Assembly (NCBI RefSeq): GCF_016863295.1
Contig: NZ_BOOP01000053.1
Location: 1 to 61,041 of the forward strand
Direction of reading: 5' to 3'
From: Planotetraspora phitsanulokensis
GTDB taxonomy: Bacteria > Actinomycetota > Actinomycetes > Streptosporangiales > Streptosporangiaceae
DNA length: 61,041 nt
Shown here: positions 5,496-58,128 of the stretch, one piece after another
Layout: every line of letters begins with the position of its first letter
Position numbering within the stretch: the stretch's first letter is position 1
Made by a program: the position numbers and the translations under genes
Notes under the pieces: generated by a model
Database searches by the model: none
What the model was told of the DNA's origin: nothing
Seen by the model: only the letters and a program-made list of their open reading frames with translations

Positions 5496-5538
5496 CCGCG
5501 GGTGCCGTGCGTAGGCGGCCCGGAGAAGACGGGCAGCG

Positions 5539-6048
5539 TCACGCCTCCGCCTTCCGGGCGAAGTCGGTGGCGGGCTCGGTGGCGTAGCGGCGCATCGCCT
5601 GGATGTTCGCCTGCGGGGTCATCGCCCGGCCACCGGCGATCATGTCCTCCAGGTCGCGGAAGTACTGCACGTAGAGATCGGGCGTGAACGTGCTGAGCAT
5701 GACGGCCGGTTCGTCGGTCACGTTGGCGAAGGTGTGCGGGGCGCCGGGCGGGACCATCACGAGCGTGCCCGCCGTCGCGTCGTAGTCCTTGTCGCCGACC
5801 GTGAACCGCACCGCGCCGGAGATGATGTAGAAGCCCTCGTCGTGCTGGGCGTGGCGGTGCTGCGGCGGTCCAGGCGTGTGCGGTGCGAGGACGGATTCGG
5901 CAATTCCGAGGCGGTGCCCGGTGTTGCTGCCGTCTTCGAGGATACGCAGTCGCGTGGTGCCCAGGACGATCGTTTCGCCGTCGCCCGGGCTGACCACCGA
6001 TACGGCGGGGTCGGCGGTCGGCTCACTGGTCTTCGGTTGGTCGGTCAT
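5539..6048 (-). CDS. Cupin-domain protein
   Basis: A 169-residue single-cupin protein. Motif 1 is QHRHAQHDEGFYIISG (metal-binding histidines and glutamate) and motif 2 includes PPGAPHTF with the last histidine ligand. Such proteins are small dioxygenases, isomerases or sugar/metabolite-binding proteins; the substrate cannot be told. It is the first gene of a likely cupin-DoxX operon divergent from LysR at 6129. Confidence 0.88.
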   Translation of the reverse strand: MTDQPKTSEPTADPAVSVVSPGDGETIVLGTTRLRILEDGSNTGHRLGIAESVLAPHTPGPPQHRHAQHDEGFYIISGAVRFTVGDKDYDATAGTLVMVPPGAPHTFANVTDEPAVMLSTFTPDLYVQYFRDLEDMIAGGRAMTPQANIQAMRRYATEPATDFARKAEA

Positions 6049-6103
6049 GTCTCGATCTCACTGTCAGTGCACCACGCCTGTCCAAGATCTGTTCTGTGCC
6101 GCC

Positions 6104-6120
6104 GATACCGCACGGGTATC
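6104..6120. promoter_or_regulatory. Candidate LysR-type operator
   Basis: GATACC at 6104-6109 and GGTATC at 6115-6120 form an inverted repeat with a 5-bp spacer, 8 bp before the LysR start and in the divergent promoter region of the cupin gene. The A/T-rich symmetric shape fits an LTTR box. Confidence 0.5.
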
Positions 6121-6128
6121 GTCGCACC

Positions 6129-7004
6129 ATGGAGCTACGCACGCTGCGCTATTTCGTGGCGGTCGCCGACGAACTTCACTTCGGCCGGGCCGCCGCCCGG
6201 CTGCACATGAGTCAGCCGCCGCTGAGCCGGGCGATCAAGCAGTTGGAGACCGAGGTCGGTGCCCCGCTGTTCGACCGCTCGCCCGCCGGAGTCGCGCTCA
6301 CTCCGGTGGGGGCCGTGCTGCTAGACGAGGCGCGGGCCCTGCTCTACCAGGCCGACCGGTTGCGCGTACGCGTGGCCGCGGCGGCCGGCACCGCGGTCAT
6401 CACGGTGGGTTTCCTGGGGGACACCGCCGACCCGGGTGCGACCCGGCTGGCCGACGCCTACCGCCGCCGGCACCCGCAGGTCGAGGTCCGCATCCGCGAG
6501 ACCGACCTGACCGATCCCACCTGCGGGCTGCACGCCGGACTGGTCGACGTCGCCCTGACCCGCGGGCCGTTCGACGAGACCGGCCTGACCGTGCGGGAGT
6601 TGCGCGCCGACCCGGTGGGCGCGCTGGTGCGCGCGGACGATCCGCTTGCCGGGCGGGACAGCGTGAAGCTGGCCGATCTGGCCGACCGCCGCTGGTTCCT
6701 GTTCCCGGTGGGCACTGACCCCGTCTGGCAGTCGTACTGGAACGGCGGGGCGCCCCGGGAGGGGCCGGTGGTGCGGGCCGTCCAGGAGTGCCGGCAAGCC
6801 GTTCTCTGGAACGGCACGGTCGGCATGACTCTCCTGGACCATGAGCAGGCGGACGGGCTCGCCGTGGTGCCGCTGATCGACATGCCGCCGAGCTGTGTGG
6901 TGGTGGCGTGGAACAAGGGCGACACGAATCCGCTGATCCGCTCGTTCGTCCGGACCGCGATCGCCGCCTACCGCGACGGAGCACCCACTGCCGGCGCGGC
7001 GTGA
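6129..7004 (+). CDS. LysR-family transcriptional regulator
   Basis: A 291-residue LysR-type regulator. It begins ELRTLRYFVAVADELHFGRA, with the winged helix-turn-helix at residues 1-60 (AAARLHMSQPPLSRAIKQLE) and a periplasmic-binding-protein-like effector domain at ~90-285. It is divergent from the cupin/DoxX pair and likely controls it. The ATG at 6129 is set by family alignment. Confidence 0.93.
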   Translation: MELRTLRYFVAVADELHFGRAAARLHMSQPPLSRAIKQLETEVGAPLFDRSPAGVALTPVGAVLLDEARALLYQADRLRVRVAAAAGTAVITVGFLGDTADPGATRLADAYRRRHPQVEVRIRETDLTDPTCGLHAGLVDVALTRGPFDETGLTVRELRADPVGALVRADDPLAGRDSVKLADLADRRWFLFPVGTDPVWQSYWNGGAPREGPVVRAVQECRQAVLWNGTVGMTLLDHEQADGLAVVPLIDMPPSCVVVAWNKGDTNPLIRSFVRTAIAAYRDGAPTAGAA

Positions 7005-7458
7005 CCGAGATCCGGGTACTCGCTCTTCGGGCGGGCTCGGCGGCCGTTGACGGCCAGATCGCGGAACGACGGTGAGTCCCCGCCGGGGAGAAGCCCGACA
7101 ACCCCCGTGCCGTCGAGAAACCCACGCTCGGCACACCGACTTGCGACGCGGTGGACGCCAAAGGGATTGATCCCAACGTGATCCTCGGGCAACTGATCGC
7201 TCTCGCCAGGGAAATCGGCTCTCCCCTCGCGCCGTGGGAGACCTGACCTAAAAGGGTCGGGCGTGGGAGAGACCAGACGCAGGTTCGACCGCTGACCCGG
7301 GAGCAGGACACCGGCTCCGGCGAGGAGCTGGGCGAGTCGGAGCGTGAGGAGCCGACGCGGCTGCGCAGGCAAAGGGCGTGCTGGCCTCAAGGGCTGGGGT
7401 CTACGAGGCGCAGAGCAGCGAGCACGACTTGGGCACGACACCGGCCTCCTCGCAGCTC
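7005..7458. other. Intergenic, possible transposase debris
   Basis: No intact gene. The plus strand near 7295-7375 reads SEREEPTRLRRQR, weakly like the coiled-coil end of an IS3 OrfA. A short open plus-strand piece (DPNVILGQLIALAREIGS, about 7150-7245) ends at a TGA; its family is unknown. Confidence 0.3.
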
Positions 7459-7732
7459 TACCAGTACAAACGCAGAGTTATGTCAGTAGTCGCGCAGGGT
7501 TTTGTCAGCGCGGGCGCAGACTTATGTCAGTAACTGCGCAGAGTTATGTCAGTGGCTCTGAGCGGGGAGGTGCTCGTGCTGACGCTGGCCGCAGTGAGCT
7601 CTCCGTTGTCATGGGCTCTGCGTCGTGATCGACAATGCGTCTGATCAGGAAAACATCTCACGGCTAGTTGCCGGCAGCTTGGCCCACTGACAAAACTCTG
7701 CGCATTTACTGTCAGTAGCACTGCGCTCAACA
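7459..7732. mobile_element. Miniature element copy 1 with 22-bp iterated ends
   Basis: Four direct copies of a CGCAGAGTTATGTCAGT-like motif begin at 7471, 7493, 7515 and 7537, exactly 22 bp apart. About 140 bp further on, the motif appears twice in the opposite orientation (CACTGACAAAACTCTGCGC and the following CTGTCAGTAGCACTGCG), ending with CTCAACA at 7732. No gene fits inside. The layout resembles the ends of IS21, Tn7 or Tn5053-type elements, so a non-autonomous derivative is inferred. The left boundary is not resolved. Confidence 0.6.
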
Positions 7733-7858
7733 CCACCGCCCGCACTGGACACGCGAACCCGCCCAGATCGCGCACCGCCTTGACACCTGCCGGCGGCGGG
7801 TGAAATCACGTTCTTGCAAGATCTTCGTGCAGGGGTGAGCAGGAGTCCGGAAAGCCTC

Positions 7859-8803
7859 TCAGCTGGCCCGGCCCAAGGTCACGGTGCGGGATCCGGGTGC
7901 GAAGTCACCGAAGGACTGTTGCCAGGACTCACCGGGCCAGTAGTACGTCACACGGCCCTCGACGGGCCGGTAGCGGGCGGTGTAGAGCGTTACCGTCCCC
8001 TGCTCGTCGACGGATCGATACAGCGGCGGCTTCAGCATCGCCGCCACGTCCACGCCCGCGGCGCGGATGGCTCGCAGCCGCTCCTGCGTCCGCAAGGTCC
8101 GCTCCTGCTCGTCGGTCACCGGAAGGTGCTGGTGATTGGCGGCGCAGGCGTCCGGTGCCACCGTCGGTGGCATATCCGGTCCCACGAACACCGTCATCGC
8201 CTTCTTGGGATCGACAAGGGTGAGGTTCTGGGGGACGGCGACCGGCAGGGACCGCAGCCTGTCGACCGCCTCATCGACGGTGTCGCACGTCTCCAGCAGG
8301 TAGCGCACGAGGATGAGAATGGCGAAGCCGCGTCCGTAGACGGAACGTCCGCCCCAGGTGAGCGAGACCGCGAGACCGGCGTCGTTCATCCCATCCTGCA
8401 AGCCCCACAGCATGTCCTGCATCCCGATCACGGGGCGCAGGAAGCAGGAGGAGACGATGGTCCCCTCGCACTGATCGGGCTGTAGGTCATAGTTGCGCAG
8501 CAGAGTGCCGTTCCTGCCGATCTGGGTGCAGGCCGGGGAGAACGGCCGCAGTGCCGCGTGGGTGAGGAAGACTTCCGCCTCGGGCCGGTCGAGTTGGCCG
8601 GCCAGGCGGTCCAGAACCGGGACCAGTTCCGGCATGTGCGCACGGAACAGCGCCCGAACACGATCCGCGCCCTCCGGAGTCCTGCCCTCCGCGGTCAGCA
8701 GGCCCTCCATCTCCTGCCACAGGGCCCGGGCGTAGGCGGCCCACCGCCCGTCGCCGCCGTCGCCGACCTCGATCGCCTGGAAGGTCTTGTTCTGTTGCCG
8801 CAT
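7859..8803 (-). CDS. C45-family autoproteolytic acyltransferase/hydrolase
   Basis: A 314-residue member of the peptidase C45 / acyl-CoA:6-aminopenicillanate acyltransferase family, which are Ntn hydrolases cleaving themselves before a catalytic cysteine. The expected nucleophile is Cys92 in SPACTQIGRNGTLLRNYDL, with downstream family features around GGRSVYGRGF. The ATG at 8803 was preferred because GGGGAG precedes it and the upstream frame has low-quality coding sequence. It may act as an amidase or acyltransferase on small amides. No clear operon partner. Confidence 0.85.
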   Translation of the reverse strand: MRQQNKTFQAIEVGDGGDGRWAAYARALWQEMEGLLTAEGRTPEGADRVRALFRAHMPELVPVLDRLAGQLDRPEAEVFLTHAALRPFSPACTQIGRNGTLLRNYDLQPDQCEGTIVSSCFLRPVIGMQDMLWGLQDGMNDAGLAVSLTWGGRSVYGRGFAILILVRYLLETCDTVDEAVDRLRSLPVAVPQNLTLVDPKKAMTVFVGPDMPPTVAPDACAANHQHLPVTDEQERTLRTQERLRAIRAAGVDVAAMLKPPLYRSVDEQGTVTLYTARYRPVEGRVTYYWPGESWQQSFGDFAPGSRTVTLGRAS

Positions 8804-9400
8804 GGCTGCCACTCCCCTGTGAGAATCGGACGAGGGTGAGGGCAACCTAGCTAATTGTGCGGGTAATTCACCAGGTGGCCGCCATCGGCGACGGCCAGGC
8901 GCTGGATCTGATGAAGCCGCGCGAGCGTGGCCGATTCGGCCCTTGAGCAGCAACCAATCGGACAGTGGCGTTAGCGAGGCAGGGCGAGCGGAGTTACCGC
9001 CATTCGATGATCCGATGCGGATGCCGGCGCAGAAGGGCGTGCTCACCTGTTCGCCGTGTTCTTCGGCTGGCTCGAGTGATGGCTACGCTGTCGGCCCGCC
9101 TGGGATCGGTCGGTCGCTGTGGGTGATGTCGATGGAGCGGCGAGCGTGGTGAGTCGATCTAGCGACGGAGATGAGAGGTCGGCGATCGATGCCCGTAGGA
9201 GCCGGGCGATTCCTGGTTCGTGGACGGATCGCCTCTCGCCGTGCGTGCCACTCCCTGATCCGGATGGCCGGCGCCTTCAGGCGCGGATCGTCGCCTCGAC
9301 CGGCGGGCACGTCGCCGACGTCGATCGCTTCACCGTGATCGGAGTGAGGATCACCCGCTGATTTGCGTTAGAGCGCGCTCAAAGTCCTAGCGTCACATCC
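8804..9400. other. Intergenic without a recognisable gene
   Basis: Nearly 600 bp with no convincing coding sequence or strong repeat. The right end carries the promoter region of the SDR gene at 9401. Confidence 0.4.
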
Positions 9401-10261
9401 ATGACGACACAGACATGGATCATCACCGGCGCATCCCGCGGACTCGGGCGCGCACTGGCCGAGGCCGCCCTCGCGGCGGGCGACAACGTCGTGGCCGCGG
9501 TGCGCACCCCCGGCAGTGTCGCCGACCTGGCGGACGCGCACCCCGGCGCCTTCCTGGCCGCCCCCTTCGACGCCCGCGACGTCGCTGCGGCGTCCGCCCT
9601 CGTGCAGGCCGCGATCGACCGGTTCGGCCAGGTCGACGTGCTGGTCAACAACGCGGGACGGGCCGTGGTCGGAGCGGTCGAGGAGGTCGGCGACGAGCAG
9701 TTGCGCGAGCTGATGGACCTGCACCTGTTCGGCCCCGCCGCCCTCGTGCGGGCGGTGCTGCCCGGCATGCGCACCCGCGGCTCCGGCACCATCGTGCAGA
9801 TGAGCAGCCAGGGCGGGCGTATGTCCTTCCCCGGCGTGTCGGCCTACTCGGCGTCGAAGTTCGCCCTGGAAGGCTGGTCGGAGGCGCTGGCCGGAGAGGT
9901 CGCACCGTTCGGTGTCCGGGTGATGATCGTCGAGCCGAGCCGGTTCCGCACCGGGTTCAACGGCGCCGACGTGCTGGAGTTCGCCGAGCCGTCGGAGACC
10001 TACCGCCAGGTGCTCGCCGCCGTGCGCGCCGACATGGCCGGCACCGACGGCCGCCAGGAAGGCGACCCGGTGCGGGCGGCCGAGATCATCGTCTCGCTCG
10101 TGCACGGCGAGGAGGTGCCGCTGCGGCTGCCGCTCGGGCGCGAGGCGGTCGAGCGCATCTCCGGCGTCTACCGGCGCGGCCTGGCCGAGACCGCCCGCTG
10201 GGCCGAGGTCGCCCAGGACGCCGACTTCGCCGACGCGCCCGCCTCGGTCCGGCCCGTCTAG
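9401..10261 (+). CDS. SDR-family oxidoreductase
   Basis: A 286-residue classical SDR with an intact active site: cofactor motif TGASRGLG at 9-16, NNAG at 84-87, the serine in QMSSQGG, and YSASK as the catalytic tyrosine-lysine pair. It resembles the family of NAD(P)-dependent oxidoreductases of unknown substrate that begin with TWIITGASRGLG. It is followed after 10 bp by a MerR regulator on the same strand, suggesting co-transcription. Confidence 0.92.
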   Translation: MTTQTWIITGASRGLGRALAEAALAAGDNVVAAVRTPGSVADLADAHPGAFLAAPFDARDVAAASALVQAAIDRFGQVDVLVNNAGRAVVGAVEEVGDEQLRELMDLHLFGPAALVRAVLPGMRTRGSGTIVQMSSQGGRMSFPGVSAYSASKFALEGWSEALAGEVAPFGVRVMIVEPSRFRTGFNGADVLEFAEPSETYRQVLAAVRADMAGTDGRQEGDPVRAAEIIVSLVHGEEVPLRLPLGREAVERISGVYRRGLAETARWAEVAQDADFADAPASVRPV

Positions 10262-10271
10262 GCTGGCGGTC

Positions 10272-10769
10272 ATGGCCACTGACGACCTGATGACCAAGGT
10301 CCTCGAAGCGCTCGGCGACGCCCAGCCCACGGTGGAGGCGATCCACGACCTCACCGACCTGGCCGAGGTGCCCTCGTCGATGACGATCGCCGAGGTCGCC
10401 GACCGGCTCGCCCTCCCGGCGCATACGCTGCGCTACTACGAGCGGGCCGGGCTGGTCACCGTGGCCAGGGACAGCCAGGGTCACCGGGTCTACGACGCCG
10501 ACGCGGTGCGGCGGCTGGTGTTCCTGACCCGGATGCGGCTATCCGGGATGTCCATGCGCGAGCTGCAGCACTACATCGAGCTGGTCGACGCGGGCGAGCG
10601 CACGGTGCCCGAGCGGATGGCCATGCTGGTCGAGCACCGCGACACGATCGTGCGGCGGCTGCGCGAGCTGACGTTGTCGCTGGCGGCCGTCGACTACAAG
10701 ATCACCACGTACGGCGGGGCAACCGGCTCCGACGTCGAGCGCAGCCCGTCGCGGGAAGCCGCCGCCTAA
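10272..10769 (+). CDS. MerR-family regulator
   Basis: A 165-residue MerR-type regulator. An N-terminal extension of ~35 residues precedes the winged helix (TIAEVADRLALPAHTLRYYE, RAGLV, at ~38-105), followed by a dimerisation coiled coil (LVEHRDTIVRRLRELTLSL). No metal-binding cysteines are present, so it is a redox, drug or aldehyde sensor type rather than a metal sensor. It sits 10 bp after the SDR gene. Confidence 0.9.
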   Translation: MATDDLMTKVLEALGDAQPTVEAIHDLTDLAEVPSSMTIAEVADRLALPAHTLRYYERAGLVTVARDSQGHRVYDADAVRRLVFLTRMRLSGMSMRELQHYIELVDAGERTVPERMAMLVEHRDTIVRRLRELTLSLAAVDYKITTYGGATGSDVERSPSREAAA

Positions 10770-10859
10770 CCGCCCTTACGTGCCCATGTCGGGCAATCGC
10801 CCGACGCGGACCCGGGCAGCCCTCCCATACGCTCGCCACAGCTGATCGGCGCACAGTCG

Positions 10860-11052
10860 GGAGCGGGCCGGCCGTACTCGTTCGTGTGGCTGGACGCGCT
10901 CGCGCAGAAGGTCCGCGAGGGCGGGCGGATCGTCAACGTGCACGCCCTGATCGCCACCGCGGTCAACGCCAACGGCAACCGGGAGATCCTCGGCCTGGAC
11001 ATCACCAGCCGCGAGGACGACGCCGACTGGCTGGGGTTCCTGCGCAGCGTTC
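10860..11052 (+). pseudogene. IS256-family (mutator) transposase fragment
   Basis: About 64 codons of an IS256-type transposase: SFVWLDALAQKVREGGRIVN and NANGNREILGLDI, the segment carrying the first catalytic aspartate. Both ends are missing; the reading is lost near 11052. Confidence 0.8.
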
Positions 11053-11088
11053 GTCCTTGCGCGGTAGCGGAGCACCGCGAACGGTGGA

Positions 11089-11120
11089 CAGGCCGACCGT
11101 TCTCCGGACCGGTCGGCCTG
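11089..11120. terminator. Hairpin terminator candidate
   Basis: CAGGCCGACCG at 11089-11099 pairs with CGGTCGGCCTG at 11110-11120 around a 10-nt loop. It lies between the IS256 fragment and the 3' end of the converging MmyB-type regulator gene. Confidence 0.55.
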
Positions 11121-11181
11121 CTTCGCTTCCCACGGTCCACGGCCGAAGCGTCGCCCTCCGCCGACTGGCCCAACGACGGCA

Positions 11182-12009
11182 TCAGTGACTGTGGCGTCGG
11201 GTCGCGGTCATCGTGGCGAGCAGGGCCAGGGACTGCTCGTCCGGGGAGCCGGGCCGGGCGTGGAGGACGGTGAGCACCTGGCCGTCCTCTACCGGCATCG
11301 CGTGGAAGCGGAGGCTGATCACGCCCAGCTCCGGGTGTCGGAAGCTCTTCGCGCCCGCTGTGGTGGTGTGGACGTCGTGGCGGGCCCACAGTTCCCGGAA
11401 CTCCTGGCTGTGCAGCGACAGTTCGCCGATGAGTTCCGTCAGCTCGGGGTCGTCCCGCTCGGTTCCGATCCGGGCCCGGAAGTTGGCGACCGCGTCCGAC
11501 GCCGCCGCGTTCCAGTCCACATGTGTCTCCCGTGTCCCGGGGTCCAGGAACACCGCACGCAGCAGGTTCGTCCCGGGCACGTAGCAGGGGGCCAGCTCGC
11601 ACGCCAGGGCGTTCGATCCGACGACGTTCATCCGGCGGCTGGTCACCGTGGCCGGTGTCGTCGTCCAGGCGTCCAGCAGTTCCTGCACGGTGTCCGACAC
11701 CCGTTCCCGGGTGCGCGTGGCGGTCGGTGCCGGGCGGGCCAGGGCGTACAGGTGCTTCGTCAGCTCCTCGTCCAGCCGCAGCGCCCGGGCCAGCGACTCC
11801 AGGACGCTCTCCGAGGGGCGGTGGCCGCGTCCTTGCTCCAGGCGCACGTAGTAGTCCGCGCTCACTCCGGCCAGGAGGGCCAGTTCCTCGCGCCGCAGCC
11901 CTGCCACGCGGCGGCGGGCGTCGCTGCCGGCGTCGTCGAGGCCCACGTCTGCGGGACGGACCTGGGCGCGGCGAGCCCGGAGGAATTCGGCGAAAGCGGC
12001 GTTGTCCAT
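11182..12009 (-). CDS. XRE-family regulator with MmyB-like ligand-binding domain
   Basis: A 275-residue homologue of the regulator at 663. Residues ~10-75 hold the helix-turn-helix (VAGLRREELALLAGVSADYY, VRLEQGR) and ~105-265 the MmyB-like domain (WNAAASDAVANFRARIG). It starts at ATG 12009 and is divergent from the zinc alcohol dehydrogenase at 12137, its probable target. This regulator/dehydrogenase arrangement is frequent in actinomycetes. Confidence 0.92.
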   Translation of the reverse strand: MDNAAFAEFLRARRAQVRPADVGLDDAGSDARRRVAGLRREELALLAGVSADYYVRLEQGRGHRPSESVLESLARALRLDEELTKHLYALARPAPTATRTRERVSDTVQELLDAWTTTPATVTSRRMNVVGSNALACELAPCYVPGTNLLRAVFLDPGTRETHVDWNAAASDAVANFRARIGTERDDPELTELIGELSLHSQEFRELWARHDVHTTTAGAKSFRHPELGVISLRFHAMPVEDGQVLTVLHARPGSPDEQSLALLATMTATRRHSH

Positions 12010-12136
12010 GGCTTCAGGCTACGTTTGGCCGTCCTGTACGAGGGTGGCCCTGCGATTCCCAGTCATCGGCCACCGATGGTGGGGCGCCGAGGTCCGGCGA
12101 CAGCATGGGGGCGTTGTGAACGAGAGGAGATCCACC

Positions 12137-13183
12137 ATGCGAACGGTCAACGGCTGGGCCGCCCAGGCACCCGGGTCGGCGTTGGCACCCTGGCGCTTCG
12201 AGCGCCGTGAGCTGCGACCCACCGACGTCGCGCTGCGGGTGACACACGTGGGGGTGTGCTTCACCGACCTGGAGCACGTGCGGCCCGAACCGGGCCACGA
12301 GCGGCCGGACATCTTTCCGCTGGTGCCGGGCCACGAGATCGCGGGTGAGGTGGTGGCCGTCGGCACTGCGGTCACCGGCTTCCGGGTCGGTGATCCGGTC
12401 TGTGTGGGGAACATCGTCGATTCGTGCGGGGTGTGCGAGGCCTGCCGCAACGGTGATCAGGAGTTCTGCGCGGAGTTCCCGACCCTGACCTACGGGGGGC
12501 GCGACCGGCGCGACGGGTCCCTGACCCAGGGCGGGTTCAGCGACGAGTACGTTGCCGACCAGGCGTTCGTGTACCGGCGTCCCGAGGGGCTCGACCCGGC
12601 CGGAACCGCGCCGCTGATGTGCGCGGGGATCACCACCTGGGTGCCGCTCAGGCGGTGGGAGGTCGGCCCGGGGCAGACGGTCGGCATCATCGGCCTCGGC
12701 GGGCTCGGGCACGTCGCGGTGAAGCTGGCCAAGGCGCTCGGCGCCGAGGTCGTGGGCTTCACCACCTCACCCGACAAGGCGAAGGACATGCTGGAACTCG
12801 GTGCCCACGACGTGGTGGTGTCGACCGATGCCGAGGCCATGGCCGGACAGCGCGGGCGGTTCGACTTCATCCTCGACACTGTGCCCCGCGTGCACGATCT
12901 CTCGCCCTACCTGACGGCACTCCGCTACGACCGGACCCTGTGCACGCTCGGCATCGTGCCGGAGCTGTCCTTCACACCTCAGACCCTGCGGTTCGGACGC
13001 AAGCGGCTGGCGGGCGCGGGCAGCGGCGGCATCACCGACACCCGGGAGATGCTCGACTTCTGCGCCGCCCACGACGTGACCGCGACCGTCGAGGTACTGC
13101 CCGTCGCCGAGGTCAACACAGCACTGGACCGGCTGGCCGCGGGCGACGTCAAGTACCGGTTCGTCCTCGACCTCACGTCCTGA
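12137..13183 (+). CDS. Zinc-dependent NAD(P) alcohol dehydrogenase
   Basis: A 348-residue medium-chain dehydrogenase of the YahK/cinnamyl-alcohol type. Catalytic zinc ligands are in HVGVCFTDLEHV and VPGHEIAGEVV; the structural zinc cysteines are in DSCGVCEACRNGDQEFC; the Rossmann motif is GLGGLGHVAVKLAK. It reduces aldehydes or oxidises alcohols with NAD(P)H. ATG 12137 is preceded by GAGAGGAG. It is controlled most likely by the divergent MmyB-type regulator. Confidence 0.92.
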   Translation: MRTVNGWAAQAPGSALAPWRFERRELRPTDVALRVTHVGVCFTDLEHVRPEPGHERPDIFPLVPGHEIAGEVVAVGTAVTGFRVGDPVCVGNIVDSCGVCEACRNGDQEFCAEFPTLTYGGRDRRDGSLTQGGFSDEYVADQAFVYRRPEGLDPAGTAPLMCAGITTWVPLRRWEVGPGQTVGIIGLGGLGHVAVKLAKALGAEVVGFTTSPDKAKDMLELGAHDVVVSTDAEAMAGQRGRFDFILDTVPRVHDLSPYLTALRYDRTLCTLGIVPELSFTPQTLRFGRKRLAGAGSGGITDTREMLDFCAAHDVTATVEVLPVAEVNTALDRLAAGDVKYRFVLDLTS

Positions 13184-13204
13184 CGAAAGGCCTGTCCATT
13201 TGAC

Positions 13205-13380
13205 GGCTCGCCCGGAGGGGCTGCAAGACACACGAGCTTCGGTGCCCTAGCAGGGCTACCACTACAAACGCAGAGTTTTGTCAGTGTTCGCGCAGGGTTT
13301 TGACAGCACGGGCGCATAGTTATGTCAGTAACTGCGCAGAGTTATGTCAGTGGCTCTGAGAGGAAGATGCTCGTGCTGAC
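13205..13380. mobile_element. Miniature element copy 2, left part only
   Basis: Four direct copies of the CGCAGAGTTNTGTCAGT motif start at 13269, 13291, 13313 and 13335, again spaced by exactly 22 bp. The similarity to copy 1 ends abruptly at GTGCTGAC (13380). Upstream, 13205-13268 shares GGCTCGCCCGGAGG and following bases with copy 3. The right end is missing, and a truncated SnoaL-like gene begins immediately at the break. Confidence 0.6.
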
Positions 13381-13515
13381 GGGGCGTCCCTCGGGTGCGA
13401 GCGGAGCCTCGTGGATCGCGTCGCCCGTGTACATCGAGACGAAGGCGGCCGTGGCTTCGCGCCGTAGCGCGTCCAGCGCTTTCGTGAACCAGTCGGGAAC
13501 GGGTGTGGTGGTCAT
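13381..13515 (-). pseudogene. SnoaL-like protein, N-terminal fragment
   Basis: From an ATG at 13515 about 45 codons read as the start of an NTF2/SnoaL-like protein (FTKALDALRREATAAFVSMY, then GDAIHEAPLAPEGRP). The gene is cut at 13380 by the repeat element. Its ATG overlaps the stop of the hydrolase fragment (ATGA), indicating a former operon. Confidence 0.6.
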
Positions 13516-13655
13516 TTGCTCTCCAGGCGGCCGATGGCGTCGAGGCGTGCGAACGCGGACGTCGCCGTCGGCCAGGCCGAGGTGTCGGACGTGAGGGTGT
13601 CGCGCAGGAACGCCCAGCTCATTCGTTGGATCACGGCCACGCGTACCGGGTCCCC
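13512..13655 (-). pseudogene. Alpha/beta hydrolase, C-terminal fragment
   Basis: The last ~45 residues of a dienelactone-hydrolase or chlorophyllase-like protein are recognisable (VIQRMSWAFLRDTL, ending LDAIGRLESK). The rest of the gene is lost at about 13655, where the TetR fragment on the other strand begins. Identification is by terminal motif only. Confidence 0.45.
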
Positions 13656-14102
13656 AGGCGGGCCGATCTGGTACTCGCGGTGCTGCAGCACGATGTCGAC
13701 GAGTGCTTCGAAACGGCCCGGGAGCTCGCCGCGGCGCACCCGCCGATGTGTGCCCTCACCTTGTGGCTCGACCGCTACTGCGCGTTCGTCCTCACCAAAC
13801 ACGGTCTCGCAGCGGCGCTGCACTCCGGCGAGGCGACCTTCGCCGGACTCGGTGCGCAACTGCTGGAGCGGCTGGAGCCGGCACTTGACGAGTTGGTGCA
13901 GGCCGCCCGAGCCGCCGGGGAAATGGGGGACGGGGCGAGCGCGATGGATCTCCTCCGCGCGGTCGCACACCTGTGCACGCCCGGCCCGTCCCATATCGAC
14001 TACACCCGCCGCATGATCACGCTCCTGCTCGCCGGACTGCGGCAGGGCTCGGCGGCGCAACGTGCCGATCCGGCTGCTTGGGCCACCGACGAAACTCGCT
14101 GA
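13656..14102 (+). pseudogene. TetR-family regulator, C-terminal fragment
   Basis: About 148 codons of a TetR ligand-binding domain (LVLAVLQHDVDECFETAREL, then LLRAVAHLCTPG and MITLLLAGLR) without the DNA-binding N-terminus. Upstream of ~13656 the sequence is a piece of an unrelated hydrolase gene on the opposite strand. It cannot bind DNA as a normal TetR protein. Confidence 0.65.
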
Positions 14103-14259
14103 GCAGCCGCGAGGCAGGGCGCCGGGTTGTCGATTCCGCGCTAATCAAGATCATCTTCCATCCTTGCAAGCGCTCAAACAGGCCGGCTCTGCGTGGAGGA
14201 TCCCCGGGCGAGGCCACCGGGGACGGCCTGTCGGCTGACGGCACCGAGAGCCGTCGTCC

Positions 14260-14800
14260 TTGGCGCAGCGTTCGCCAAATTGCTGAAGTACTTCGGGTTC
14301 GCGGAGCATCACCTGGCTGAATGCGGTGAACGACCAGGTCGCGGGCATCGGGCAGATGTCGTGACCGGCACCCCGCGCGACTCCCTGCAGATCCTGGACG
14401 CCCTGCTGAACCTCGGCGGCGGGGTGAAGCCGGAGATGGTGGCCACCGACAGTCCCGCCACAAGCTCGCCCGCGACATCTGCCACGGTAAGAAGGGCACC
14501 ATCCACCAGGCATACCGGGACGGCATGGAGGACCAGCTCGGATCGCTCGGCCTGGTGCTGAACGCCGTGGTGCTGTGGACGACGCGGTACATCGACGCCG
14601 CCGTCGCCCGGCTCCGCGCGCAAGGCCACGAGATCAAGGACGAGGACGTCGCCCGGCTGTCCCCGCTCAAGCACTGTAACCTCAACGTCCTGGGCCGCTA
14701 CAGCTTCACGGCCTCCCAGTCCGTCGAGGGCCTGCGCCCGCTGCGCGACCCGGACGGCGTCGACCTCGACGATGACGACGACGAGAAGTTGGGGGCCGCG
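14260..14800 (+). pseudogene. Tn3-family transposase remnant
   Basis: Pieces of the DDE_Tnp_Tn3 domain in different frames: LLNLGGGVKPEMVATD near 14400-14450, ICHGKKGTIHQAYRDGMEDQ from ~14475, and the end LGLVLNAVVLWTTRYIDAAV, LSPLKHCNLNVLGRYSF. A large internal segment is deleted near 14455. No resolvase or 38-bp-type inverted repeats were noticed nearby. Confidence 0.8.
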
Positions 14801-14806
14801 GCCCCC

Positions 14807-15766
14807 TCACGTGATCTGGATGATGTGCTTGCCGCGGACGCCACCGGCTTCCAGGGCCCGGTGGGCGTCGGCTATCCGGTCGAGAGGGTGGACGGTGTCC
14901 ACGACGGGGACGATGTCGCCGTGCTCCGCGTAACGGGTGATCTCGGTCAGCAGCTCGGTTTCGGGGTTGCCGCTGAAGACGCGTATGCGTCTGCTCCCGT
15001 GGACGGTCGAGGCGAGGATGGTGGCGAGGCTGGGGAGAAGCCTGTTGAAGTCGGGGGTGACGGCGACCATGCGCCCGCCGGGTGCCAGCAGGCGGCGGAA
15101 GCGGGACTGCTGCGTGCCGGCGGTGTCGACGATGACGTCGAAACGGCCCAGCTCGGAGAGGCGAGTCGTACGGTAGTCGAGTGCTTCGTCGGTGCCCAGG
15201 CCTCGGACGAAGTCGAGGTTTTTCGCGCCCGCGAGAGCGACGACGTGGGCACCGAAGAGCTTGCCAATCTGCACCGCGACGCTGCCCACGCCTCCGCTGC
15301 CCCCGCGCACTAGGAGTCGCTCACCGGGTTTGATGACGGCCTTCTCGCGCAGGGCGGTCACCGCCGTGGCCCCGCCGGCGAGCAGTGAGATGGCCTGCAC
15401 CGGGGTGAGGTTCTCCGGAGCGGGGGCGATCTGGCGGGGGCGTACGGCGACGTACTCGGCCATGCTGCCCGTCTTGCGCCCCAGCAGCCCCCACACCCGG
15501 TCCCCTTCACGTACTCCGGTGACCGACGAACCGACTTCGGCGACCTCCCCGGCGAAGTCGATTCCGCTCGTCTTGGGGAAAGTATGGCCGGTTACCAGAC
15601 GCATTTTCCCGGCCCGATCGAGCAGCTCGCCACCGTTGACGCTGGCGACGTGCACCCGCACCAGCACCTCGTCGGGCGTGGGGGTAGGCGTCGGCCGCTC
15701 GCCCACGTAGAGGACCTCCGGGGGGCCGTATCGGTCGAAGAGGGCTGCGCGCATGTCGCTCATCAT
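14807..15766 (-). CDS. NADP-dependent quinone oxidoreductase-like protein
   Basis: A 319-residue zinc-free medium-chain dehydrogenase. It has the GroES-like fold (DEVLVRVHVASVNGGELLDR), the nucleotide motif VRGGSGGVGSVAVQIGK and a C-terminus ending AGGVRGKHIIQI, as in NADPH:quinone reductases. It reduces quinones or enones with NADPH. It is divergent from the TetR gene at 15879 across an inverted repeat. The neighbouring Tn3 remnant ends just beyond its 3' end. Confidence 0.9.
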   Translation of the reverse strand: MMSDMRAALFDRYGPPEVLYVGERPTPTPTPDEVLVRVHVASVNGGELLDRAGKMRLVTGHTFPKTSGIDFAGEVAEVGSSVTGVREGDRVWGLLGRKTGSMAEYVAVRPRQIAPAPENLTPVQAISLLAGGATAVTALREKAVIKPGERLLVRGGSGGVGSVAVQIGKLFGAHVVALAGAKNLDFVRGLGTDEALDYRTTRLSELGRFDVIVDTAGTQQSRFRRLLAPGGRMVAVTPDFNRLLPSLATILASTVHGSRRIRVFSGNPETELLTEITRYAEHGDIVPVVDTVHPLDRIADAHRALEAGGVRGKHIIQIT

Positions 15767-15827
15767 CTCGTCCTGTGTCGCGTTTCGGAGCTGCGGAGGC
15801 GCTGTGTGCGCCCGCTGGTACGCTCAC

Positions 15828-15863
15828 GCTAAACCGGTAAGTGGATGACATCGTCCGTTTAGC
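15828..15863. promoter_or_regulatory. Candidate TetR operator
   Basis: GCTAAACCGG (15828-15837) and CCGTTTAGC (15855-15863) are nearly perfect inverted arms in the promoter region shared by the quinone oxidoreductase and TetR genes. Confidence 0.5.
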
Positions 15864-15878
15864 TTGAAGTGAGAGACA

Positions 15879-16565
15879 TTGCCTGCTCAGCCATCTCACA
15901 AGCCGTCCGGGCACGTCGGCGATGTGCCCGGCGATGCAGACCCGGCGGGCCTGCGCGCCGATGCCCGGCGTAACCGGGAACGCATCCTTGAAGCTGCGCG
16001 CGAGGTGTTCGCGGCCCAGGGCATTGACGCCCCTATAAGCGCCGTCGCCCGCCGCGCCGGCGTCGGCGTGGCCACCCTCTACCGCCGCTTCCCCACCCGC
16101 ACTGCGCTTGCCACCGCTGCCTTTGCCGAGCAACTCGCCCTGTGCGCGGCAGCCTTCGACGAGGCCCTTACGGACCCTGATCCCGGGCACGGCCTGTACG
16201 CACTCCTGGAGAAGGTGTGCACCACACAGGTGACCGACCGCGGCTTCGCCCCCGTATTCCTGGATCAGTTCCCCGATGCCCTTGATCGCGATCACGAACG
16301 CGACTGCGCCGAAGAGGGTCTGGCGCGGCTGGTCCAGCGTGCCCGCGAGACCGGACAGCTGCGCGACGACTTCGACCCCGCCGATATCACCCTCCTACTC
16401 CTGGCCAACAGCGGCCTCGCCGGACAACCGCGAGAAACCGCCCTCGCTGCCTCCCGGCGCCTGCTCGCCTATCTCTTCCAGGCTTTCCAGGCACAGCGCC
16501 CTGGCTCTCTCCCACCTCCCGCGATGGAACTGCGCGAAATCCGCCAGCCACCGGGCCGCCCGTGA
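15879..16565 (+). CDS. TetR-family regulator
   Basis: A 228-residue TetR-type repressor. A ~25-residue leader precedes the helix-turn-helix (ISAVARRAGVGVATLYRRFP, TRTAL). The open frame begins with TTG at 15879, 15 bp after the inverted repeat, so a later start is possible. It likely represses the divergent quinone oxidoreductase and itself. Confidence 0.88.
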   Translation: MPAQPSHKPSGHVGDVPGDADPAGLRADARRNRERILEAAREVFAAQGIDAPISAVARRAGVGVATLYRRFPTRTALATAAFAEQLALCAAAFDEALTDPDPGHGLYALLEKVCTTQVTDRGFAPVFLDQFPDALDRDHERDCAEEGLARLVQRARETGQLRDDFDPADITLLLLANSGLAGQPRETALAASRRLLAYLFQAFQAQRPGSLPPPAMELREIRQPPGRP

Positions 16566-16782
16566 GCCCGATCACGCACCGTGCCAACGGTGAGCATTCC
16601 TCGCACTTGCACAGGGGCCTCTAACAAATGACCAGTTGCGAGAGTTCTGCGAACGCCCCGGAGCCGATCACGTTTCCCCCAACTCGACCTGACCCAGGTC
16701 TGCAAGCGGAGGTCATAGCTCGCTACCACAACGCGCGAAATCATGACCAGTGACACCGGCTACTGCTATCTAGGCGAACGAG

Positions 16783-17086
16783 GGCTCGCCCGGAGGTACT
16801 GCGAGACAAACGCGTTTCGGTGGGACAGCGGTCTCCTAGTAGCCCTACCAGGGCAAACGCAGAGTTTGTCAGTAGTTGCGCAGGGTTTTGACAGTGCAGG
16901 CGCAGGGTTATGTCGGTGGCACCGAGAGGGAGACCGCTGGCCGGCAGTGGGCTCTCTGTCGCATCGGCTCTGCGTCGTGATCGATAATGCGCCTGACCAC
17001 GGCAAACATCTCACGCTTGGGTTGCTGGCAGCTTGGCCCACTGACAAAACTCTGCGCATTTACTGTCAGTAGCACTGCGCTCAACA
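16783..17086. mobile_element. Miniature element copy 3 with iterated ends
   Basis: Three direct motif copies begin at 16858, 16879 and 16901 (one T is deleted, and one repeat lost, relative to copy 1). The core GGCTCTGCGTCGTGATCGA and the right end (CACTGACAAAACTCTGCGC onward to CTCAACA at 17086) match copy 1. The left flank from GGCTCGCCCGGAGG matches copy 2. The element has no coding capacity. Confidence 0.6.
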
Positions 17087-17244
17087 GGGAGACCCGGGTC
17101 ACCGGCACGGACTGGTACAGCCGTCCCGAGGACCTCGCTGTAGGCCGGGTGCGCTGGACCAAATCCCGGCATCGACACGGCGCTGGTCATCGACGCTACC
17201 TGACCTGGTAGGGGGCCTCGCTGGTCGCAGCGCCCCGCGTCCTG

Positions 17245-18930
17245 CTAGCTCAACTCTGAGCGGAACTGGTCGTCGCGCCACTCGTCGGGCCGCGCCTCGT
17301 TCTCGCGCCCACGCAGTTCAACTCGGCGGATCTTGCCGGACAGAGTCTTGGGCAGTTCGGAGAACTCGATGCGGCGTACCCGCTGATAGGGGTTCAACCG
17401 CCTGCGAGCGTGCTTGAAGATCGACAGTGCCGTCTCCTTTGTCGGCTCGTGCCCCGGCGCCAGCGCGATGTAGGCCTTGGGTACGGCCAGGCGAATCGGA
17501 TCCGGCGCCGGAACGACGGCCGCCTCCGCGACTGCGGGGTGCTCGATCAGGACCGATTCCAGCTCGAACGGACTGATCTTGTAGTCACTCGCCTTGAAGA
17601 CGTCATCGGTGCGCCCGACGTAGAAGATGTATCCCTCGTCGTCGACCGTGGCCACATCGCCGGTGTGGTAATAACCGCCGGCCATCGCCTCGGCCATGCG
17701 TTCCGGATCGGACTGGTATCCCTTCATCAGGGACAGCGGTCTGCGGGCCAACTCCAGGCAGATCTCCCCCTCACCCGACCCGGTCAACGGCTTGTGGGTG
17801 CCGACGTCGACCAGGACCACGGGAACGCCCGGCAGCGGACGACCCATCGAGCCCAGCTTGACCTCGGTCCCGGGCACGTTGCCGACCTGCGCGGTCGTCT
17901 CCGTCTGCCCGAACCCGTCCCGGATCGTCAGCCCCCAGGCACGCCGGACCTGTTCGATCACCTCGGGATTCAACGGCTCCCCGGCGCCGACCGCCTCACG
18001 CAGCCCTGGAGGGCGCTCCCCCAACTCCGCCTTGACCAGCATCCGCCACACCGTCGGCGGCGCGCAGAACGAGTTGACCTCACGCGCGCGGATCTGCGTC
18101 AGCAGCGCGGCGGCGTCGAAACGGCTGTAGTTGTAGACGAACACGGTTGCCTCGGCGATCCACGGCGCGAAGAAGCATGACCACGCATGTTTGGCCCATC
18201 CGGGAGATGAAATGTTCAGGTGTACGTCGCCCGGCTGGATCCCCAGGAAGTACATGGTCGGCAGATGCCCGACCGGATAGGACACCTGGGTGTGCTCGAC
18301 CAGCTTCGGGCGAGATGTCGTCCCCGAGGTGAAGTAGAGCAACACCGGGTCATCCGCCGACGTCCGCGGATGCTCTGTCGGCGCCCACTCCAGCGTCGCC
18401 GCCTCCCGCAGATCGGCCCAGCCGTCAGCCGGCCCGACACTGATCCGCGTGAACGCTCCCTGCACCTCGCCCAGCCGCGCCGTGTCGGCCGCGTTGCAGA
18501 TCAGATGCCGCGCACCACTGCGGGCGATCCGCTCGGCCACGTCCGCCGCCGTGACGGCGGTCGTGGTGGGCAGCACGACCGCCCCCAACTTCATGATCGC
18601 CAGCATCGACTCCCACAGTTCCACCTGATTACCCAGCATCAGGAGAACCGGGTCACCCTTCACCACGCCGTTCGACGCCAGCCACGACGCCAGGCGATCC
18701 GACGCCCGAGCCATCTCATCGAAGCTCCGCTCGATCGCCGAACCGTCCTCCTCTACGATCACCAGAGCCGGCCGGTCGTTGCCGCGCGCGATTGCGTCGA
18801 ACCAGTCGACCGCCCAGTTGAAGCGGTCACCGAGCTGCGGCCACTGGAACTCCGCCACAGCCCGCCTGTAGTCACCCCGCATCGACAGGAGTTGGTCCCG
18901 GCTCGCCCGGTAAGCACTGGTCGCGTCCAT
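17245..18930 (-). CDS. Acyl-CoA synthetase (AMP-forming)
   Basis: A 561-residue ANL-superfamily enzyme that activates a carboxylic acid with ATP and couples it to CoA. The ATP motif YFTSGTTSRPK lies at ~199-209, the adenylation motif GFGQTETT near 370, the hinge FKASDYKISPFELE near 460, and the catalytic lysine in KTLSGKIRR near the C-terminus. It best fits medium-chain or benzoate-type acyl-CoA synthetases. The ATG at 18930 has a GAGGAG site; the longer frame upstream is not used. It stands alone. Confidence 0.93.
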   Translation of the reverse strand: MDATSAYRASRDQLLSMRGDYRRAVAEFQWPQLGDRFNWAVDWFDAIARGNDRPALVIVEEDGSAIERSFDEMARASDRLASWLASNGVVKGDPVLLMLGNQVELWESMLAIMKLGAVVLPTTTAVTAADVAERIARSGARHLICNAADTARLGEVQGAFTRISVGPADGWADLREAATLEWAPTEHPRTSADDPVLLYFTSGTTSRPKLVEHTQVSYPVGHLPTMYFLGIQPGDVHLNISSPGWAKHAWSCFFAPWIAEATVFVYNYSRFDAAALLTQIRAREVNSFCAPPTVWRMLVKAELGERPPGLREAVGAGEPLNPEVIEQVRRAWGLTIRDGFGQTETTAQVGNVPGTEVKLGSMGRPLPGVPVVLVDVGTHKPLTGSGEGEICLELARRPLSLMKGYQSDPERMAEAMAGGYYHTGDVATVDDEGYIFYVGRTDDVFKASDYKISPFELESVLIEHPAVAEAAVVPAPDPIRLAVPKAYIALAPGHEPTKETALSIFKHARRRLNPYQRVRRIEFSELPKTLSGKIRRVELRGRENEARPDEWRDDQFRSELS

Positions 18931-19149
18931 GGGGGGCTCCTCGGTGGATCGCTCGTAGAGCGAGGATGCACACGTTACGTCTGAGCGGATACCCCCGAAC
19001 GGGGGTAGTCCCATCAGAACGCGGTACCTCGGAACCGTCCAGGGTCGTTCTGGTCAGGCAAGCCAGAACGCCGGCCAGCACTACTTCGGCCGTTTGCCGA
19101 ACCGGCAACCGACGACCAAGCCGGTGGTCTCTCCGCACGCCGGGTGATC

Positions 19150-57053: not shown

Positions 57054-57288
57054 CTTCCCCCTGGTGCGTGACCTGTTCAGGCTGATCGATGTCGACGACA
57101 ACGACCTGGGGCAGACCGTCGACGCGCTCGAGACCGCCGCCGACGGCATGCGAGCACTCGACCGCACGCAGCCGGTGACCGCGGACAACGACAGTGAGTG
57201 GTCCCCGGCCGGGACCGGTGTGGGCGCTGTACGCGCGGGTGGCCGACATGCGGCTGGTGCGCGCCGAGCTGGCCGAAGCAACGGGCCG

Positions 57289-57518
57289 GTGAGCGTGGCG
57301 GCCTTCATCGCTTCCCAGAAGACCGCCCATGGCGATCCCCACGCACTGACCTGCCGAGTATTGGGTGTCTCGCAGGCCTGGAGGACTTGTCCTCCCGCCG
57401 GATGCTCGGCTACGCCACCTCCGCCCATATCTCCGACTTCGACAACACCCGCCGCCGGCACAGCGCTGCCGACGGACTAGGACCAGCCGAGTACGAGCAA
57501 CAGATCATGGCCGCCTGA
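57289..57518 (+). pseudogene. IS3-family OrfB, internally deleted
   Basis: A GTG at 57289 opens SVAAFIASQKTAHGDPHALT and CRVLGVSQAW, the start of IS3-type OrfB. The reading then shifts to pieces of the integrase core (DLSSRRMLGYATSAH) and its end (NTRRRHSAADGLGPAEYEQQ). The catalytic centre is missing. Confidence 0.8.
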
Positions 57519-57567
57519 ACAGCCGCCGGTCCCGAGGACGACGACGTCGTAAGTGTTGCCGTCCAGG

Positions 57568-58128
57568 TCAGTTTCCCTTCGCGGCGCGGCCGAGACGGAA
57601 GGCCGAGATGAGGAAGAAGATGCCGCCGGGGATGGCGTATCCGGCCGCGTTGATCAGCGTCGGGCTGTCGGCGGAGGCGCCAACGATGAACGACGCACCG
57701 GCGAGTACGGAGATGCCGCCGCTGATGATCATCGGCCACTGGCCGCCCATCTTGCGGCGAGTGACACCCACGATCAGCTGGACCAGCCCGGCCACGATCG
57801 CCCAAGCGCCCCACACCCGCAGCACCGCCGGGATACCGGACGCGCAGGCGACGGCCACGCCGATGGCGGTGATCAGACTGACCGCGATGTTCACGTACAG
57901 CAGGGCAGGTGATCCGGTGGTGCGCGACGCGCGGGCGTCGATGATGGCGGCGCCCACGTCGAACAGCGGGTAGAGCACGAGCAGAGTGACCGCGAGCGGA
58001 CCCAGGTTCGAGGCGGTCGTGAACATCACGAGGGCCCAGACGATGGCGAAAGCGAACCGGACGAAGTACAGCCGCCGCAGTGCGGACGCGGTTCTGGAAA
58101 TGCCGGGCGAAGCAGCGATAGTGCTCAT
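57568..58128 (-). CDS. HdeD/DUF308-like membrane protein
   Basis: A 186-residue integral membrane protein with about six short helices, resembling the HdeD/DUF308 family, whose members are linked to stress responses in bacteria. Examples are YFVRFAFAIVWALVMFTTAS and GGISVLAGASFIVGAS. An 84-bp piece of this gene is copied at 2666-2749. It is divergent from the TetR gene at 58472 across a region with two identical 14-bp repeats. Confidence 0.8.
   Translation of the reverse strand: MSTIAASPGISRTASALRRLYFVRFAFAIVWALVMFTTASNLGPLAVTLLVLYPLFDVGAAIIDARASRTTGSPALLYVNIAVSLITAIGVAVACASGIPAVLRVWGAWAIVAGLVQLIVGVTRRKMGGQWPMIISGGISVLAGASFIVGASADSPTLINAAGYAIPGGIFFLISAFRLGRAAKGN

Follow-up and report, generated by a model that had tools for sequence, protein, structure and literature searches.

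What are the three short stretches of repeat-bearing, apparently non-coding DNA found on contig C53 of Planotetraspora phitsanulokensis, and from which kind of element do they derive? The window analysed here is the whole of this contig (61,041 nucleotides), which forms part of a 9.17-Mb genome. An earlier note, made from the sequence alone, had described three copies of a small element with shared direct repeats, tentatively linked their mobilisation to transposases of the Mu/TnsB type (IS21, Tn7, Tn5053) and named plasmid iterons as the main alternative. We consider that these copies are degenerate, non-autonomous elements, similar to miniature inverted-repeat transposable elements (MITEs) and mobilised in trans, that constitute satellites of a TnsB-type (Mu/Tn7/Tn5053 superfamily) transposon branch of actinomycetes (probability approximately 0.8). 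On the best reading they are mostly stranded now.

The repeat motif CGCAGNGTTNTGTCAGT, when up to two mismatches are allowed, occurs at 12 places in the window, every one of which lies within the three copies, against a mean of 0.12 (maximum 1) in 100 dinucleotide shuffles of the window. The starts of the direct sites (Table 1) bear out the exact 22-bp period previously read in copies 1 and 2 and the spacing of 21 and then 22 bp in copy 3, where site 16858 has one base deleted as read by eye. Copies 1 and 3 do close with two inverted sites and CTCAACA, their final 66 bp being identical at 65 of 66 positions. To the left of the iterated sites, homology among the copies reaches 40–80 bp further, the left limit of copy 1 having been set by homology with Planotetraspora mira (L080:275) and not being a proven terminus. 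The number of direct sites, which is 4, 4 and 3 in the window copies and 2–4 in P. mira, varies by 22-bp steps.

Table 1. Coordinates of the repeat elements and of the adjoining segments in the window.
Feature	Position	Strand	Description
Copy 1	7399..7732	+	left segment (~70 bp), four direct sites of 22 bp, spacer (~130 bp) and a pair of inverted sites; the right terminus is CTCAACA
Four direct sites of copy 1	7471..7553	+	starts 7471, 7493, 7515, 7537; exact 22-bp period
Right end of copy 1	7686..7732	-	TGTTGAGCGCAG..TGACAGT..CGCAGAGTTTTGTCAGTG
jetD gene fragment at the right junction of copy 1	7733..7783	+	match to the P. mira jetD ORF (JetD_C 1.8e-54) starts exactly at 7733
Copy 2	13202..13381	+	left segment plus four direct sites; breaks off within the spacer at 13381, the right part being absent
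Four direct sites of copy 2	13269..13351	+	starts 13269, 13291, 13313, 13335; exact 22-bp period
Segment shared with P. mira	14776..17086	+	matches G002 (P. mira) C37:192663-194985 at 97.5–98% identity, which breaks off exactly at CTCAACA
Copy 3	16780..17086	+	left segment followed by three direct sites (starts 16858, 16879, 16901), a spacer and a pair of inverted sites; closes with CTCAACA
Right end of copy 3	17040..17086	-	two inverted sites and CTCAACA

A search of the genome and its relatives, as the earlier note had suggested, was partly productive, in that it recovered copies in P. mira and fragments in two further Planotetraspora genomes (G001 and G004) but nothing beyond the three loci in the host genome with copy 1 as query (seven BLAST matches). 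One related right tip lies elsewhere in the host genome, at C5:45140. In five Planotetraspora genomes the motif with at most one mismatch was seen elsewhere only at related loci and at one weak place (G004:C18), and a reversed control gave 0. A single P. mira contig bears five related copies, of which four have left arrays and the fifth consists of a right end only; a separate end lies at C48:61944 of that genome. We refer to the window-type element and its site type, found in the window and in P. mira, as type A; a related element, designated element B (TGTTGAGCGCAG..), is present in G001, in G003 and twice in P. mira, and a fragment of it lies on contig C37 of the host genome.

The seven right-end copies (two in the window and five in P. 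mira) agree with one another at 49–65 of the terminal 66 positions and at only 11–22 of the next 60, which is the level of chance, and for this reason the right boundary at CTCAACA is real in all seven. Immediately beyond copy 1 on the right, 51 bp correspond, from the very next base, to P. mira C37:13154-13204 (92%), a position inside an uninterrupted open reading frame (ORF) of 399 amino acids (aa) for a JetD protein of the Wadjet type; the left part of jetD is absent beside copy 1. As to empty sites in relatives, on which the original proposal partly depended, an uninterrupted counterpart of this right flank thus exists, but no complete empty site was shown. Beyond the CTCAACA of the 2.3-kb segment that the window shares with P. 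mira, the two genomes differ: P. mira has parts of a transposase gene of the Tn3 type, and in the window an AMP-binding gene follows from 17245 on.

Such boundaries bear directly on the proposal that the repeats are plasmid replication iterons, i.e. direct repeats bound by Rep, with the inverted copies lying in the rep promoter. The units are small, and 22-bp direct repeats accompanied by fewer inverted copies do resemble iteron origins. However, no replication family was detected among 20 scanned ORFs located in the first 19.0 kb of the window (11 of the 20 matched nothing), copy 3 as a DNA query found nothing in 72,556 plasmid records or in phage records, the CTCAACA boundary is sharp with unrelated flanks in seven copies, and the same end type occurs on elements with target duplications. 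Iterons are disfavoured and we regard them as highly improbable. An RNA element was likewise rejected as the identity of the copies, Rfam having given no match at E values up to 1 across positions 7000–17400 of the window. Viewed as MITEs, the copies are short, only their right terminus is intact, and they have neither a target duplication nor an Rfam match.

The right end of the window copies (5'-TGTTGA followed by TGACAGT..TGTCAGT sites) belongs to an end type that extends beyond the genus. A gapped pattern of TGTTGA and two TGTCAGT-type sites was found at 25 places in 16 of 297 genomes of the family, which had been drawn evenly from a larger group, and in 7 of 68 genera, the reversed pattern giving 0; a stricter pattern, applied to 394 genomes from the class, gave 3 places in 2 of them. 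Several of the places make inverted pairs, and five of eight end pairings are flanked by exact 5-bp duplications (L162, L192:1417-3161, L131, L167 and L200). Two of these elements, L162 (10.5 kb) and L200 (8.9 kb), hold a TnsB/TnsC operon. L167 (3,479 bp) has scraps of tnsB and Y, one of the further operon genes described below, between its duplicated ends and looks like an internal-deletion derivative. The remaining two carry passengers, namely a protein kinase with a ricin-type lectin domain (L131, 3,040 bp) and a pentapeptide-repeat protein (L192, 1,745 bp). The same architecture, comprising a TGTTGA-type terminus, TGTCAGT sites iterated at approximately 22 bp and unequal site numbers at the two ends, therefore bounds both operon elements and passenger-only elements. 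The ends of L200 and L199 are of related make-up and start with TGCCAAG and TGTCGAC in place of TGTTGA. These findings support the earlier view of a mobile, non-coding family of actinomycetes, and the search it suggested, for a full element between such ends, has been answered in part, by L162 and L200, while neither an IstA/IstB element nor a transposase at the exact site type came to light. In Nocardiopsis quinghaiensis (L059/L192 1417-4883) two paralogous pentapeptide-type genes lie in tandem, the first of them between transposon ends with a 5-bp duplication; integron-like cassettes were considered for this pair and were dropped upon finding the duplication.

The ends might alternatively belong to an insertion sequence of the IS481 or IS21 type and not to a TnsB/TnsC element. 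In favour of this, a TGTTGAG end with 22-bp repeats on contig C37 of the host genome lies approximately 780 bp from a transposase fragment which we take to be of the IS481 type, and in relatives long transposases (535–614 aa; L087-L090, L097), presumably IS481-like as well, have iterated repeats nearby in some loci, at some of which these are inverted at the other end. The ends of those transposases, however, carry other motifs (TTGACA or CAGGACATG types), the C37 fragment matches the rve region alone, and the five duplication-flanked elements contain the TnsB operon, its scraps or passengers. When two TnsB proteins were compared with the NCBIfam models for IS481, IS3 and IS21, whose cut-offs are 224, 160 and 160, the scores were 20–62 bits, and the IS21 model itself gave 20.6 and 22.6 bits; matches to IstB in the host genome were partial only. 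Both families were accordingly rejected as a source, and this explanation as a whole appears very unlikely. Of the Mu/TnsB-type assignment the class therefore holds, by virtue of the shared end architecture on TnsB/TnsC elements and the 5-bp duplications, whereas IS21 does not.

The operon comprises four genes in the order B, C, X, Y, which is conserved in L162, L200 and further loci without a confirmed end pair; N. quinghaiensis and P. mira are among the genomes that show it, and the host genome has C-X-Y together with a separate B. The products measure 531–614 aa for B where the frame is open, 251–274 aa for C, 454–582 aa for X in most loci and 250–317 aa for Y, the Y of L200 having been assigned by position and not by BLAST. 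Protein B is a TnsB-like DDE transposase with rve and Mu-transpos_C domains, in which D, D and E are invariant in six of six proteins, and its profile matched in the PDB the TnsB of ShCAST (7.6e-30), that of Tn6677 (8.8e-13), a chain named Integrase (1.8e-8) and Tn7 TnsB (8e-5). The profile of C, a TnsC/MuB-like ATPase, matched target DNA activator B (MuB; 4e-12) and ShTnsC (8e-6), and C matched PF05621 (TniB) in four of eight members at E values up to 0.01, L200 lying above the curated cut-off. For X there was a single PDB match (E 0.59) and weak AAA_22 matches in three of nine members, some members possibly carrying extra sequence at the start, while Y gave helix-turn-helix and winged-helix matches. 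Pfam detected no TniQ or TnsA among the scanned operon proteins (nine members each for X and Y), the other genes of the elements being only partly scanned.

A recombinase gene lies near the operon, of the tyrosine type in L162 and L200 and of the serine type in the Streptomyces plasmid NZ_CP109423.1, where iterated sites occur 3' of Y as well and where the annotation calls B a Mu transposase C-terminal domain-containing protein, C an ATP-binding protein, X a hypothetical protein and Y a helix-turn-helix regulator. Some operons are damaged: tnsB of L162 has an in-frame stop, and the matches of L192 tnsB, L192 X and L197 X are split over more than one frame. Relatives of the host's own tnsB occur in 10 of 100 sampled genomes of the family and in one of the four other Planotetraspora genomes, and viral contigs contain four distant TnsB relatives (24–25%) and one TnsC relative. 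Relatives of the TnsC gene lie within 15 kb of the record end in 32 of 52 plasmids of at least 150 kb, where 4.6 would be expected; the count is based on the 60 records listed out of 96 that matched, omits eight plasmids below 150 kb and carries no correction for relatedness among the plasmids or for record topology. One of these plasmid records, NZ_CP109355.1, is linear and has as its outermost gene a helicase-associated one. At C50:34642-34748 of the host genome (L196 4643-4749) two C-X-Y modules converge with 107 bp between their Y genes, their products being 28–52% identical protein by protein. P. mira has a comparable convergent arrangement, with a 402-aa ORF between its two Y genes (L205 12976-14184) that has no Pfam match.

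A tie between the window copies and a transposase is provided by L200, a duplication-flanked (5 bp) element in which four direct sites at one end face two inverted sites at the opposite end, as they do in the window element. In addition, the host genome has a 561-aa tnsB at the start of contig C51, besides the convergent modules on C50, and a tnsB 51% identical to it lies in P. mira on the contig that bears its type A copies.

Several results weigh against the proposed reading. Close to the P. mira tnsB lie ends of a different type (TTTGCCA..GATGTCAG), and the stretches scanned around the host's own genes (C51 and C50:18000-37999) showed no iterated ends of the TGTCAG type; the cognate transposase for the type A sites, CGCAGAGTTTTGTCAGT, was therefore not found, and no transposase was met beside that exact site type. 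The iteron-side terminal TGTTGA is absent from every type A copy. Aligning the flanks for target-site duplications, another step foreseen in the earlier note, gave nothing convincing on six type A copies: in five the 5-mer of the right flank is missing from the 400 bp to the left, and in the sixth (P. mira L079) it lies 267 bp off and is followed by TG, in a stretch that is unlike element B and apparently coding. Three of the eight end pairings (L162 511-10774, L192 3191-13760 and L197 6117-15225) have no duplication, no gene spans a copy from flank to flank as judged by eye from translations, and the short related fragments of G001 and G004, which were excluded from the seven right ends, terminate where visible in CTCACCA or CTCAACG. 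Since the left TGTTGA and convincing duplications are both missing, the copies sit at rearranged junctions, which might have arisen by one-ended transposition, by adjacent deletion or through recombination. Placing the left terminus at TGCAC, or where the shared 80 bp begin, was rejected as no duplication was found, and so was a 535-bp full-length form of L079, whose candidate start is the stretch resembling coding sequence.

An alternative explanation is that remnants of one or more large TnsB elements decayed in place and spread by recombination or segmental duplication only, without ever having been mobile as short units. Consistent with this are the lack of convincing target duplications, the 2.3-kb segment, ending at CTCAACA, that P. 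mira has in common with the window, the clustering of copies on one contig in both genomes and the abutting ends of the kinds A-B and C-B (type A adjoins element B at L077, and another end type adjoins it on P. mira C36). Yet the short layout of left array, spacer and right end recurs in six copies with a conserved spacer and unrelated right flanks, which is hard to obtain from independent decay, and we therefore judge this explanation unlikely, albeit one to be taken seriously. The satellite reading is thus preferred: the three window copies resemble decayed remains, devoid of genes, of a Tn7-like family, and we infer that they were moved by this transposase class and that their left termini were lost through decay, one-ended events or adjacent rearrangement.

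In terms of mechanism, the 22-bp units are predicted sites for a TnsB-like transposase, the left array of four (or three) direct sites and the right end of two inverted sites plus TGTTGA being the putative substrates. The DDE transposase, supplied in trans together with the TnsC/MuB-like ATPase, would pair both arrays, cut at TG..CA and join the ends to target DNA staggered by 5 bp. Elements devoid of TnsA would be expected to make cointegrates, to be resolved by a recombinase.

The window copies themselves are ordinary decayed pieces and the interest lies in the lineage behind them. We tentatively propose, at somewhat less than even odds, an undescribed TnsB/TnsC lineage of actinomycetes in which two new core proteins would take the place of TnsA and TniQ, namely X, which may be a degenerate second protein of the AAA-like kind, and Y, with helix-turn-helix and winged-helix features, perhaps as target selector; its satellites, which share its end type, would comprise gene-less miniatures (type A and element B) and single-passenger units (kinase-lectin and pentapeptide protein). 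TnsB-type ends on miniature and passenger-only derivatives would show Tn7-like machinery feeding a trans-mobilised satellite economy in antibiotic-producing actinomycetes, and X and Y would offer candidate components of target selection by a route different from TniQ.

With respect to the surroundings of the copies, window positions 7217–7392, to the left of copy 1, contain a remnant resembling an element on G001:C4 which we assume to be IS3-like, with more matches to that element at 57275–57527. The segments 5500–7104 and 17245–19015 lie ~52 kb apart on contig C5 of G001 but only ~10 kb apart in the window, where copies 1 and 3 are near the borders of the intervening DNA. Repeats in inverted orientation (147 nt at 94% and 43 nt at 100% identity), at 348–535 and 2192–2378, surround approximately 1.7 kb with an ORF for an MmyB-like regulator, and a 94-nt direct repeat (96% identical) is present near both contig ends, at 2656–2749 and 57755–57848.

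The kind of element encountered here is already known; the present branch carries two putative helper proteins, X and Y, and short satellites for which the literature consulted yielded no description. As in Tn7 and Tn7-like elements, including Tn6677 (a CRISPR-associated transposon of type I-F3) and ShCAST (V-K), the relatives described here combine a TnsB-like DDE transposase, a TnsC-like ATPase and arrays of ~20-bp sites at both ends; Tn7 makes a 5-bp target duplication and the end of Tn6677 likewise starts TGTTGA. Unlike Tn7, the scanned operon proteins gave no Pfam match to TnsA or TniQ/TnsD, X and Y follow C, and the window copies are gene-less. Tn5053/Tn402 has the TniABQR set, a TnsA-less core with a recombinase. 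The present elements share this TnsA-less core and a recombinase, and C matches TniB in half of its members, but TniQ is undetected, the order is B-C-X-Y and the recombinase is of the tyrosine or, in NZ_CP109423.1, the serine type.

Three TnsB sites at the left end of Tn7 and four at its right end are given by Benler et al. 2021 (PMC8649781), according to whom TnsB clade 2 is dominated by Actinobacteria with no member characterised experimentally, and TnsA-less elements gain resolvases. The hidden Markov model (HMM) score demanded there for TnsB is at least 60, against the 20.7–32.2 bits obtained on PF00665 for the TnsB proteins here, but custom HMMs were also employed in that study, so that this branch may or may not have been included (PMC8649781). 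Tn7706 of Rhodococcus erythropolis is an actinobacterial Tn7-like transposon with tnsA, tnsB, tniQ and tniB, and differs from the present operon, in which no tnsA or tniQ family was detected (PMC12915292). The literature consulted yielded no description of miniature derivatives of this branch, and for Planotetraspora together with transposon it yielded just one paper, a genome report on a different genus. Like bacterial MITEs and Tn3-derived inverted-repeat miniature elements (TIMEs), the window copies are short, gene-less and, on our reading, mobilised in trans; TIMEs, however, come from Tn3, whereas the window copies have TnsB-type ends with the left terminus missing (PMC10969869, PMC13367494). 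Finally, multiple ends can arise, according to Benler et al. 2021 (PMC8649781), when an element inserts into or beside one already present, which matches the position of type A beside element B at L077 and of another end type beside element B on P. mira C36.

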